From Nocardioides thalensis (lineage in GTDB: Bacteria > Actinomycetota > Actinomycetes > Propionibacteriales > Nocardioidaceae): a stretch of 64,000 nt of DNA. Below the pieces are notes generated by a model. The model had not been told where the DNA came from. It saw nothing but the letters and a program-made list of their open reading frames with translations, and did no database searches. Position numbers and translations under genes: made by a program. Below are positions 50,186 to 52,454 of the stretch, in pieces (positions within the stretch are counted from its first letter, which is position 1; each line of letters starts with the position of its first letter). Location: the NCBI RefSeq assembly GCF_013410655.1, contig NZ_JACCFP010000001.1, positions 744,001 through 808,000 on the forward strand, in the 5' to 3' direction.

Positions 50186-50193
50186 GACGACTG

Positions 50194-50330
50194 CTCATCC
50201 AGAGGGACTGAGGGAACGGCCCGTTGAAGTCCCGGCAACCGCCACGAGCCTCCTGCCGCGCAGATGCGGCGGCAGTCGTGGAGACGGTGCCAAATCCGGC
50301 CCGCACGACGGACGTGACGGGACAGATGAG
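50194..50330 (+). promoter_or_regulatory. SAM-I (S-box) riboswitch
   Basis: CTCATC (50194-50199) and GATGAG (50325-50330) form P1. The conserved core reads AGAGGGACTGAGG, then GGCCCGTTGAAG and TCCCGGCAACC, the S-box signature. CCACGA and TCGTGG form P3, with a long GC-rich inner hairpin. GGTGCCAAATCC begins P4. The Shine-Dalgarno AAGGAGG (50331-50337) adjoins P1, so SAM binding probably shuts off translation of the gene at 50343. S-box RNAs control methionine and SAM genes. Confidence 0.9.
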
Positions 50331-50342
50331 AAGGAGGATCCC

Positions 50343-51644
50343 ATGAGCGCCGTCGTGACCGACGAGACCGGCACCATCGACACCCCAGCGACGAGCACGG
50401 CCACGTCCGGCCTGCGGGAGGGCGCGTTCGGCCACGCCGTCGCGCTGTCCTGTCGTGAGTGCGGCCACCGGGTCGACCTCGGCCCGTTCTACGCGTGTCC
50501 GGAGTGCTTCGGCCCGCTCGAGATCGCCTACGAGTTCCCCGAGGTCACCCGCGAGGAGATCGAGGCCGGTCCGCGCAACATCTGGCGCTACAAGGCGCTG
50601 CTCCCGGTGCCGTCCGACATCGAGCAGAGCCCGAACATGGAGCCCGGCTTCACCCGGCTCCTCAAGGCCGAAAACCTCGGCCGCGAGCTCGGCATCACCA
50701 ACCTGTGGGTGAAGGACGACTCCACCAACCCGACCAACTCCTTCAAGGACCGGGTCGTCGCCTGCGCCCTCTCGGCCGCGCGCGAGCTCGACGCCAAGGT
50801 CTTCGCCTGCCCTTCCACCGGCAACCTCGCCAACGCGGTCGCCGCCGCCGGCGCCCGGGCCGGGATCAAGACCGTCGTCTTCATCCCGAGCAACCTGGAG
50901 AAGCCGAAGCAGGTCAACTCCGCGATCTACACCGAGAACCTCGTCGCCGTCGACGGCAACTACGACGACGTCAACAAGCTCGCCTCGGAGATCGCCGGCG
51001 AGGAGGACGGCTGGGCGTTCGTCAACGTCAACGTCCGTCCCTACTACGCCGAGGGCTCCAAGACGCTGGGCTACGAGATCGCCGAGCAGCTCGGCTGGCG
51101 GCTGCCCGACCAGATCGTCATCCCCGTCGCGTCCGGCTCGCAGCTGACCAAGGTGCACAAGGCGTTCCAGGAGCTGATCAAGGTCGGCCTCGTCGAGGAC
51201 AAGCCCTACAAGGTGTACGGCGCTCAGGCCACCGGCTGCTCGCCGGTCTCGGTCGCCTACAAGGCCGGCACCGACGCGATCCGCCCGGTCAAGCCCGACA
51301 CCATCGCCAAGAGCCTCGCGATCGGCAACCCCGCCGACGGCATCTACGTGCTCGACATCTGCCGCCAGACCGGCGGTGCCGTCGAGGACATCACCGACGA
51401 CGAGGTGCGCGAGGCGATCGTGCTGCTCGCCCGCACCGAGGGCGTCTTCACCGAGACGGCCGGCGGCACGACGGTCGGCGTCCTGAAGAAGCTCGTCGAG
51501 ACCGGCCAGCTCGACCCGTCGCTCGAGACGGTCGTGATCAACACCGGCCACGGCCTGAAGACCCTCGACGCGATCTCCGACCAGGTCGCCCCCCGCGCCA
51601 CGATCGCGCCCACATACGACGCCTTCAAGGCCACCGGCATCTGA
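50343..51644 (+). CDS. thrC: threonine-synthase-like PLP enzyme with N-terminal zinc ribbon
   Basis: The 433-residue fold-type II PLP enzyme is annotated by family as threonine synthase (O-phosphohomoserine to threonine). The PLP lysine is K135 in NSFKDRVVAC. CPSTGNLANAVAAAGARAG binds PLP phosphate. C37, C40, C52 and C55 form a zinc ribbon (SCRECG, ACPECFG). The genetic setting does not fit threonine synthesis: a SAM-I riboswitch controls it and the next gene encodes a CysO-like sulfur carrier. It may instead replace the phosphate of O-phosphohomoserine with sulfur to make homocysteine; this is inference. The ATG has AAGGAGG 5 bases upstream. Confidence 0.85.
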   Translation: MSAVVTDETGTIDTPATSTATSGLREGAFGHAVALSCRECGHRVDLGPFYACPECFGPLEIAYEFPEVTREEIEAGPRNIWRYKALLPVPSDIEQSPNMEPGFTRLLKAENLGRELGITNLWVKDDSTNPTNSFKDRVVACALSAARELDAKVFACPSTGNLANAVAAAGARAGIKTVVFIPSNLEKPKQVNSAIYTENLVAVDGNYDDVNKLASEIAGEEDGWAFVNVNVRPYYAEGSKTLGYEIAEQLGWRLPDQIVIPVASGSQLTKVHKAFQELIKVGLVEDKPYKVYGAQATGCSPVSVAYKAGTDAIRPVKPDTIAKSLAIGNPADGIYVLDICRQTGGAVEDITDDEVREAIVLLARTEGVFTETAGGTTVGVLKKLVETGQLDPSLETVVINTGHGLKTLDAISDQVAPRATIAPTYDAFKATGI

Positions 51645-51675
51645 GAACACCACAGAACAGAGGAACGACAACAGC

Positions 51676-51954
51676 ATGAGCGTCAGCGTCCGGATCCCCA
51701 CCATCCTCCGCACCTACACCGGCGGCGACTCCGAGGTCACCGCCAACGGCGCGACCCTGAGCGAGGTGCTCGACGACCTCGACGCCAACTTCGCCGGGAT
51801 CAAGGGCCGGATCGTCGACGAGGACGGCAAGCTGCGCCGCTTCGTCAACGTGTACGTCGGCGAGGACGACGTGCGCTTCCAGCAGGACCTCGCCACGCCG
51901 ACCCCCGACGGCACCAAGGTCTCGGTGATCCCGGCCGTCGCCGGCGGCTGCTGA
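51676..51954 (+). CDS. ubiquitin-like sulfur carrier, CysO/MoaD family, ending Gly-Gly-Cys
   Basis: The 92-residue beta-grasp protein closely resembles mycobacterial CysO: RIPTILRTYTGG at the start, DANFAGIKGRI, RRFVNVYVGEDDVRF and VIPAVAGGC at the end. CysO carries sulfur as a C-terminal thiocarboxylate on Gly-Gly. Here the gene encodes an extra Cys after Gly-Gly, so processing by a JAMM/Mec-type peptidase would be needed first. No mec or cysM is in the window. It lies 31 bases after the thrC-like gene under the same SAM riboswitch, which points to methionine-linked sulfur transfer. Confidence 0.9.
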   Translation: MSVSVRIPTILRTYTGGDSEVTANGATLSEVLDDLDANFAGIKGRIVDEDGKLRRFVNVYVGEDDVRFQQDLATPTPDGTKVSVIPAVAGGC

Positions 51955-51974: not shown

Positions 51975-52454
51975 GTGACCGACCACCACTACGCGCTCGA
52001 GCTCACCTGGCAGGGCAACCGGGGCACCGGGACCAGCGGCTACCGCGACTACGGGCGTCAGGTGCTGCTGCACGCCGACGGCAAGCCCGACCTGCTGGGG
52101 TCGGCCGACCCGACGTTCCGGGGCGATGCCGACCGGTGGAACCCCGAGGAGCTGTTGGTGGCGGCGCTGGGGCAGTGCCACCTGCTGTCCTACCTGCACT
52201 CGGCGGTCAACCACGGGATCACGGTGCTCGCCTACGAGGACAGCCCGGTCGGCACCATGGCGCAGGTCGGCCAGGGCGGCCGCTTCACCGACGTGCTGCT
52301 CCGGCCACAGGTCACGATCGCCGATCCCGCGCACGTCGGGCTCGCCCGGGAGATCCACCACGAGGCGAGCGCGAACTGCTTCATCGCGCAGTCGGTCAAC
52401 TTCCCGGTGCGCCACGAGCCGACGATCCTGGTCGCCGGCGACCAGGAGTCCTAG
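51975..52454 (+). CDS. OsmC-family peroxiredoxin-like protein
   Basis: The 159-residue OsmC/Ohr-fold protein reduces organic hydroperoxides in better-known members. Both reactive cysteines are present: LGQCHLLSYLH and SANCFIAQSVNFPV. The GTG start at 51975 has CACAAT 6 bases upstream, so it may be transcribed separately from the sulfur-carrier gene. Its TAG shares CTAG with the stop of the convergent ligase gene. Confidence 0.9.
   Translation: MTDHHYALELTWQGNRGTGTSGYRDYGRQVLLHADGKPDLLGSADPTFRGDADRWNPEELLVAALGQCHLLSYLHSAVNHGITVLAYEDSPVGTMAQVGQGGRFTDVLLRPQVTIADPAHVGLAREIHHEASANCFIAQSVNFPVRHEPTILVAGDQES

Follow-up and report, generated by a model that had tools for sequence, protein, structure and literature searches.

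We have analysed a 64,000-nucleotide stretch of the Nocardioides thalensis genome (contig NZ_JACCFP010000001.1, positions 744,001 to 808,000; hereafter the window). In it an S-adenosylmethionine (SAM) riboswitch stands in front of a gene for a threonine-synthase-like protein, here called ThrC2, which is followed by a gene for a CysO-like sulfur carrier. A first-pass annotation had proposed that ThrC2 is a homocysteine synthase fed by the carrier. The features of the locus are as follows.

50192..50332, + strand: SAM-I (S-box) riboswitch aptamer (Rfam RF00162, 71.8 bits, gathering threshold 44.4, E 7.9e-15 for the whole window)
50194-50199 pairing with 50325-50330, + strand: strands of the P1 helix of the aptamer (3' strand GATGAG)
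50332..50337, + strand: Shine-Dalgarno sequence AGGAGG of ThrC2, directly 3' of the P1 3' strand; predicted translational off-switch
50343..51644, + strand: ThrC2, predicted pyridoxal phosphate (PLP)-dependent zinc-ribbon ThrC-like enzyme, 433 residues (profile, PDB and Foldseek matches, surveys)
50451..50507, + strand: N-terminal ribbon of four cysteines, predicted to bind zinc: C37, C40, C52 and C55 (each of the four columns is Cys in 107 of 107 ThrC2 sequences)
50745..50747, + strand: Lys135, predicted PLP lysine in SFKDR (Lys in 107 of 107 ThrC2 and 11 of 11 canonical ThrC sequences)
51645..51675, + strand: gap of 31 bases between ThrC2 and the carrier, read from the sequence
51676..51954, + strand: CysO-like sulfur carrier, 92 residues, ending ...PAVAGGC (PF02597, 50.2 bits, cut-off 22.5)
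51943-51951, + strand: codons of the GGC carboxyl terminus of the carrier

The RF00162 match scores above the curated threshold and is the sole SAM-I match in the genome, a single contig of 4.57 Mb that is 99.9% complete. The P1 helix begins at 50194, which is also where the locus of the first-pass annotation begins, and the match confirms an S-box core directly in front of a ThrC-like gene and its ribosome site. The start codon is the ATG at 50343, and the ribosome site lies against P1. SAM-I riboswitches can build the ribosome site into the 3' side of P1, as described in an excerpt of PMC2258182. A transcription terminator as the expression platform was ruled out, as just 10 bases separate the end of the aptamer from the start codon; with no space for a terminator, control would be translational. 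When strict Shine-Dalgarno patterns were applied to the 87 fetched loci of the class survey described below, the Shine-Dalgarno-like core overlapped the GATGA(G) strand of P1 in 59, followed it by at most 4 bases in 14 and lay further downstream in 5. The leader is predicted to act as a SAM-sensing off-switch on ThrC2 translation.

ThrC2 matches the threonine-synthase model TIGR00260 with 261.5 bits (cut-off 167.1) and NF006050 with 289.5 bits, which is under the cut-off of 303. A sequence search of the PDB returned threonine synthases, and the predicted structure (mean pLDDT, the model's per-residue confidence, 82.8) has 6nmx, 6cgq and 2c2b as its top Foldseek matches; the 22 best PDB fold matches are named threonine synthase or, once, CapA2. 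The zinc-ribbon character noticed in the first pass held, cysteines 37, 40, 52 and 55 all being present. In an alignment of 107 ThrC2 and 11 canonical ThrC sequences, ThrC2 keeps the PLP lysine, the STGN motif and the GLK motif. On the other hand, the Thr of STGN and the Arg of NPxR, which are present in 11 of 11 canonical sequences and which we take, from the Thermus ThrC complex, to be ligands of the substrate phosphate, are replaced by Leu162 and Tyr235 in 107 of 107 ThrC2 sequences. The columns of the NPxR loop hold a one-residue shift, so the pairing of the NPxR Arg with Tyr235 is the less certain of the two. The GNAGN loop of canonical ThrC is ASGS in ThrC2, and new, near-invariant residues appear at Arg232 (107/107), Ser264 in the GNAGN loop (107/107), Lys270 (106/107) and Lys323 (105/107). 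Given these changes, ThrC2 cannot be regarded as just a further threonine synthase. A third ThrC-like clade (loci L257-L262) has the same four ribbon cysteines, with FKAR for FKDR and TNGN for STGN.

In the carrier the Gly-Gly pair occupies positions 90 and 91, and a single further Cys ends the chain. Its best PDB match is 3dwg_C (E 3e-27), which carries the PDB name culture-filtrate antigen and which we take to be mycobacterial CysO; the next is 4n6e_B. It shares 55% identity with the CysO encoded elsewhere in this genome, which ends ...AVAGG. The earlier reading of a CysO/MoaD-type carrier 31 bases after the ThrC-like gene is thus upheld by the PF02597 and 3dwg_C matches, with the qualification that the tail runs one residue past Gly-Gly. 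A molybdopterin or thiamine carrier is not favoured, as the top two matches of known structure are both of the CysO type. Among the 63 carriers adjacent to ThrC2 in the class survey, nothing follows Gly-Gly in 48, C in 13, CA in 1 and A in 1, and the tails S, SR, AR, Q, AV, AG, AGA and STDDGV occur outside the class and in a set of named loci. Unusual tails were seen at L287, L291 and L299 (AG, STDDGV and A) and at several of the named loci. JAMM peptidases trim the precursors QbsE and HcyS, and tails as short and variable as these would be expected of a precursor processed in this way. The CysO-cysteine adduct is a known substrate of the JAMM peptidase Mec; the GGC end of the carrier is formally the same chain as this adduct. 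The carrier is predicted to form a C-terminal thiocarboxylate.

Directly after the carrier lies an OsmC-like open reading frame (51975-52454, + strand; PF02566, 44.3 bits). It was rejected as a third member of the system, relatives being found near just 2 of the 80 named loci within the fetched flanks.

The window's genome contains 10 matches to the PALP family. ThrC2 is not its only thrC, which would have been part of what the first-pass annotation had named as fatal to its proposal: a canonical ThrC (TIGR00260, 278.1 bits), 32% identical to ThrC2, is encoded between hom (NF004976, 560.1 bits) and thrB (TIGR00191, 207.4 bits, cut-off 168.25). With hom-thrC-thrB present, the cell should have a supply of O-phosphohomoserine. 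A separate operon (L245) encodes a JAMM peptidase (PF14464), a CysO-like carrier and CysM; this CysM has its best PDB match (E 5.7e-147) in 3dki, an entry that bears the name O-phosphoserine sulfhydrylase. As both hom-thrC-thrB and mec-cysO-cysM are present, the locus in the window represents a second, parallel ThrC and carrier. A search with the genome's own Mec through the fetched flanking sequence of 80 named loci, 94 loci of the class and 20 of the phylum found no JAMM gene beside ThrC2. In profile searches of this genome MetX was absent (best match 30.7 bits), as were MetA and MetY. Nor does a MetY hide among the PF01053 proteins, the two that exceed 100 bits reaching 315.6 and 191.7 bits on the MetY model, whose cut-off is 495.1; these two are cystathionine gamma-synthase/lyase-like. 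A MetX concealed among the hydrolase matches was likewise rejected, given the best MetX score of 30.7 bits.

To place the locus in the class we used one draw of 118 actinomycete genomes (surveyed genomes and loci carry G and L numbers). ThrC2 was called above 500 bits with alignment A1, the next score being 304, and SAM-I sites were searched for with stricter Infernal filters, under which weak sites may be missed. A SAM-I riboswitch is present in 93 of the 118 genomes, at 96 sites, with exactly one in 90 genomes. ThrC2 is encoded in 88 genomes. Each of the 88 genes is preceded, on its own strand, by a SAM-I riboswitch whose distance to the first aligned base ranges from 8 to 279 bases, with a median of 32; with a riboswitch upstream of every surveyed ThrC2, the arrangement is not chance. 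Seen from the riboswitch, 94 of the 96 sites were fetched, the window's own site was read directly and a cut-off site of G071 was left out; ThrC2 stands at 87 of the 94 fetched sites, or 88 of 95 counting the window. The 30 genomes without ThrC2 have a SAM-I match anywhere in just 5 cases.

Canonical ThrC (at least 395 bits) occurs in 116 of the 118 genomes and accompanies ThrC2 in every one of the 88; it is missing in G091 and G102, neither of which has ThrC2. A CysO-like carrier is encoded somewhere in 88 of 88 ThrC2 genomes compared to 17 of 30 others, and a JAMM protein (PF14464) in 88 of 88 compared to 15 of 30. This co-occurrence of riboswitch, carrier, JAMM protein and canonical ThrC favours the earlier reading. 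The pairing of ThrC2 with a carrier holds for every ThrC2 genome; adjacency of the two genes, however, is seen in 63 of the 87 fetched class loci and is not general. Outside the class the system persists. A draw of 197 genomes from the phylum contains ThrC2 above 500 bits in 72, of which 63 lie outside the class, and among 20 fetched loci from outside the class a riboswitch lies within about 500 bases in 15 and the carrier is next door in 18. In a set of 80 named loci, which includes Nocardioides, Kribbella, Actinomadura, Streptosporangium, Lentzea, Kitasatospora and Streptomyces, the carrier is next door in 71, and a riboswitch lies upstream in all 16 loci given to Rfam. There are at least 591 ThrC2-encoding stretches in species genomes. 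Among the best 120 relatives of ThrC2 the name, where the source gives one, is threonine synthase.

Seven SAM-I sites are without ThrC2 (L129, L132, L133, L135, L139, L140 and L141); six were inspected by eye, and L141 ends at a contig end. At L129 (G021) and L135 (G056) the riboswitch is followed by ABC-transporter genes (ATP-binding, substrate-binding and permease), in genomes that have MetX and no ThrC2. L133 is the second SAM-I site of G100, a ThrC2 genome, and has a peroxiredoxin-like open reading frame downstream.

The distribution of the known methionine enzymes bears on the role of ThrC2. MetX was scored as present above 300 bits, a limit chosen once the scores had shown a gap from 313.6 to 168.6. 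By this measure MetX is found in 65 of the 118 genomes, MetY above its curated cut-off also in 65, and MetA in G057, G069 and G075 alone. All three are absent from 51 genomes, the window's included, and 48 of these 51 have ThrC2, compared to 40 of the 67 genomes with at least one of the three (Fisher p 1.2e-5, kinship ignored). Intermediate MetX scores in G046 (159.5), G017 (148.3) and G080 (92.1) were counted as absent; if they are taken as present, the figure becomes 45 of 48. G009 has MetY at a contig end and is without MetX. Ten families contain ThrC2 genomes both with and without MetX. Among six sampled members of the genus, G079, the one without ThrC2, has MetX and MetY, and G000 and G054, the two without MetX, have ThrC2.

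On these observations, a role of ThrC2 and its carrier in the methionine branch is very likely. We further consider it probable that the locus encodes a SAM-repressed homocysteine synthase, in which ThrC2 would join O-phosphohomoserine to the sulfur of the carrier thiocarboxylate; its substrate, sulfur donor, product and SAM binding we infer. In this scheme Mec, the JAMM peptidase encoded with cysO and cysM elsewhere in the genome, would trim the extra C-terminal residue of the carrier, exposing Gly-Gly, and an E1-like/rhodanese enzyme would charge the carrier to the thiocarboxylate. ThrC2 would eliminate phosphate from O-phosphohomoserine by ThrC-like chemistry, giving a vinylglycine-type PLP intermediate whose C-gamma would be attacked by the carrier sulfur. 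The resulting carrier-homocysteine adduct would rearrange to the amide, from which Mec would free homocysteine, as in the CysM/CysO/Mec pathway to cysteine. Methionine synthase and then SAM synthetase would act downstream, and SAM would stabilise P1 against the ribosome site, so that translation stops.

Several observations weigh against this proposal. TIGR00260, which accepts ThrC2, is an equivalog model for threonine synthase, and ThrC2 forms one clade in a quick tree with a node support of only 0.33. Loss of the phosphate ligands of ThrC would raise the possibility of a substrate other than O-phosphohomoserine. The window's genome also encodes a PRK07811 cystathionine gamma-synthase-like protein (672.9 bits, cut-off 513) that could supply homocysteine. 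No carrier is adjacent in 24 of the 87 fetched ThrC2 loci, in some of which the contig ends nearby; there ThrC2 would need either CysO as a shared donor or sulfide. MetX occurs in 39 of the 88 ThrC2 genomes, so the ThrC2 route is not always the sole one, and three fragmented genomes are without ThrC2, MetX, MetA and MetY alike (G007, 970 contigs; G010, 100 contigs; G071, 470 contigs, its riboswitch being cut short by the end of a contig). Regarding the switch, 5 of the 20 loci from outside the class have no riboswitch above threshold, and no Shine-Dalgarno-like core was found in 9 of the 87 class loci; for a span of 16 bases from the P1 strand the count of loci without one is 8 of 87. In the ligand-free fold of the leader the 5' P1 strand pairs with the start-codon region, so an open ON state was not reproduced.

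What alternatives would account for the same genes? ThrC2 might make homocysteine (or cystathionine) from O-phosphohomoserine and free sulfide (or cysteine), the carrier serving another step. PALP-fold relatives do use free sulfide, and the 24 loci without an adjacent carrier would be easily understood. We nevertheless regard this as unlikely, for it leaves unaccounted the presence of carrier and JAMM protein in every ThrC2 genome, compared to about half of the others, and the position of the carrier as the next gene in most class loci, most named loci and 18 of the 20 from outside the class. A role in another sulfur amino acid (cysteine made from O-phosphoserine, for example), or the use of another activated amino acid, would suit a phosphate site unlike that of ThrC and the presence of cysteate synthase among the weaker relatives of ThrC2 (TIGR03844, 70.5 bits; 9k3c). 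The genome already has mec-cysO-cysM for cysteine, though, SAM-I riboswitches generally mark genes for methionine and SAM, and ThrC2 accompanies the lack of MetX, MetA and MetY in 48 of 51 genomes; we find this alternative quite improbable.

Even less can be said for ThrC2 as an alternative threonine synthase through which SAM gates the outflow of O-phosphohomoserine from the methionine branch. The equivalog match and the names of its relatives would be explained; plant threonine synthase is controlled by SAM, and the incomplete PDB title of 2c2b names S-adenosy.... But a canonical thrC accompanies ThrC2 in 88 of 88 genomes, switching off threonine synthesis with SAM would act in the wrong direction to spare a methionine precursor, the carrier is left without a role, and the ThrC-specific residues are replaced. 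We give equally little credence to a scheme in which MetX-less species obtain homocysteine through a MetB-like enzyme from O-phosphohomoserine and cysteine, ThrC2 being unrelated. Plants make methionine from these two compounds, according to an excerpt of PMC13257386, and the PRK07811 protein would be a candidate in this genome; the scheme leaves unexplained the riboswitch on ThrC2 and the occurrence of ThrC2 in nearly all of the genomes without a MetX, MetA or MetY route. A carrier-fed homocysteine synthase thus remains our preferred reading.

Published data on Streptomyces coelicolor touch on the same gene. This species is said to lack metA and metXY (PMC11356490, seen in excerpt). In the accessible part of PMC2267785, SCO4293, a 'putative threonine synthase', and SCO4294 stand together with cysM, the cys operon and the ssu genes as sulfate-assimilation genes that share an expression pattern. 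An excerpt of PMC5839063 prints a 20-base ArgR box at the start of SCO4293. This 20-mer occurs exactly in 8 fetched loci (L034, L037, L072, L075, L201, L202, L204 and L276) that trace to 5 different records, namely G076, G106 and three from named Streptomyces; every one of the loci is a ThrC2 locus. We take SCO4293 as a ThrC2 orthologue because, among the fetched loci, the printed box occurs at ThrC2 loci alone. At these loci arginine control may overlap SAM control (excerpts of PMC5839063 and PMC3293853). The Actinobacteria of a table in the accessible part of PMC3766115 are Corynebacteriaceae and Mycobacteriaceae. Our literature search returned no account of a carrier-dependent ThrC or of the target of this riboswitch; subscription journals were mostly outside its coverage, so one may exist.

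With slightly less assurance than for the locus itself, we lean towards an ancient, SAM-riboswitch-controlled homocysteine route of the Actinomycetota that employs gamma-replacement on the ThrC fold, is the main route in species without MetX, MetA and MetY, and has its enzymes misnamed as threonine synthases. Such a route would need no acyl-homoserine, MetY or MetB, O-phosphohomoserine and a protein thiocarboxylate being sufficient. It would be the main source of methionine in many species without MetX, MetA and MetY, S. coelicolor probably included, and hundreds or thousands of proteins named threonine synthase would be homocysteine synthases. The proposal offers a testable answer to the origin of homocysteine in actinobacteria, Streptomyces included, that lack the textbook enzymes (51 of 118 here), and names a target for the single SAM-I riboswitch of most surveyed genomes. 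If correct, it would also place a gamma-replacement synthase of the ThrC fold among the few enzymes whose sulfur comes from a carrier protein.

The arrangement resembles the ThiS/MoaD-JAB neighbourhoods of Iyer et al. 2006 (PMC1779556), in which a carrier adjoins an enzyme of sulfur amino acid metabolism; in the part of that source available, carrier neighbourhoods (rows 4c-4e) include cysteine synthase or O-acetylhomoserine sulfhydrylase, whereas 'threonine synthase' has 0 occurrences in the main text. With canonical ThrC, ThrC2 shares the fold, the PLP lysine and the STGN and GLK motifs; it differs in its four-cysteine ribbon, in the changes of Thr to Leu162, Arg to Tyr235 and GNAGN to ASGS, and in the new Arg232, Lys270 and Lys323. 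In Wolinella succinogenes, HcyS and HcyD reportedly support protein-thiocarboxylate methionine synthesis with MetY, which is said to act on O-acetylhomoserine. A carrier thiocarboxylate leading to homocysteine and a precursor tail removed by a JAMM peptidase would be common to that system and to the one predicted here from the genes; unlike the Wolinella MetY system, ours stands in a genome without MetX and MetY. The mycobacterial CysM-CysO-Mec system differs in that here the partner is ThrC-like, a SAM riboswitch is present, the predicted reaction leads from O-phosphohomoserine to homocysteine, and the carrier has an extra C-terminal residue; the CysM-CysO-Mec operon of this genome is a locus separate from that of ThrC2. 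What the two systems have in common is a CysO-like carrier, a PLP-dependent synthase of fold type II and a JAMM peptidase encoded in the same genome.

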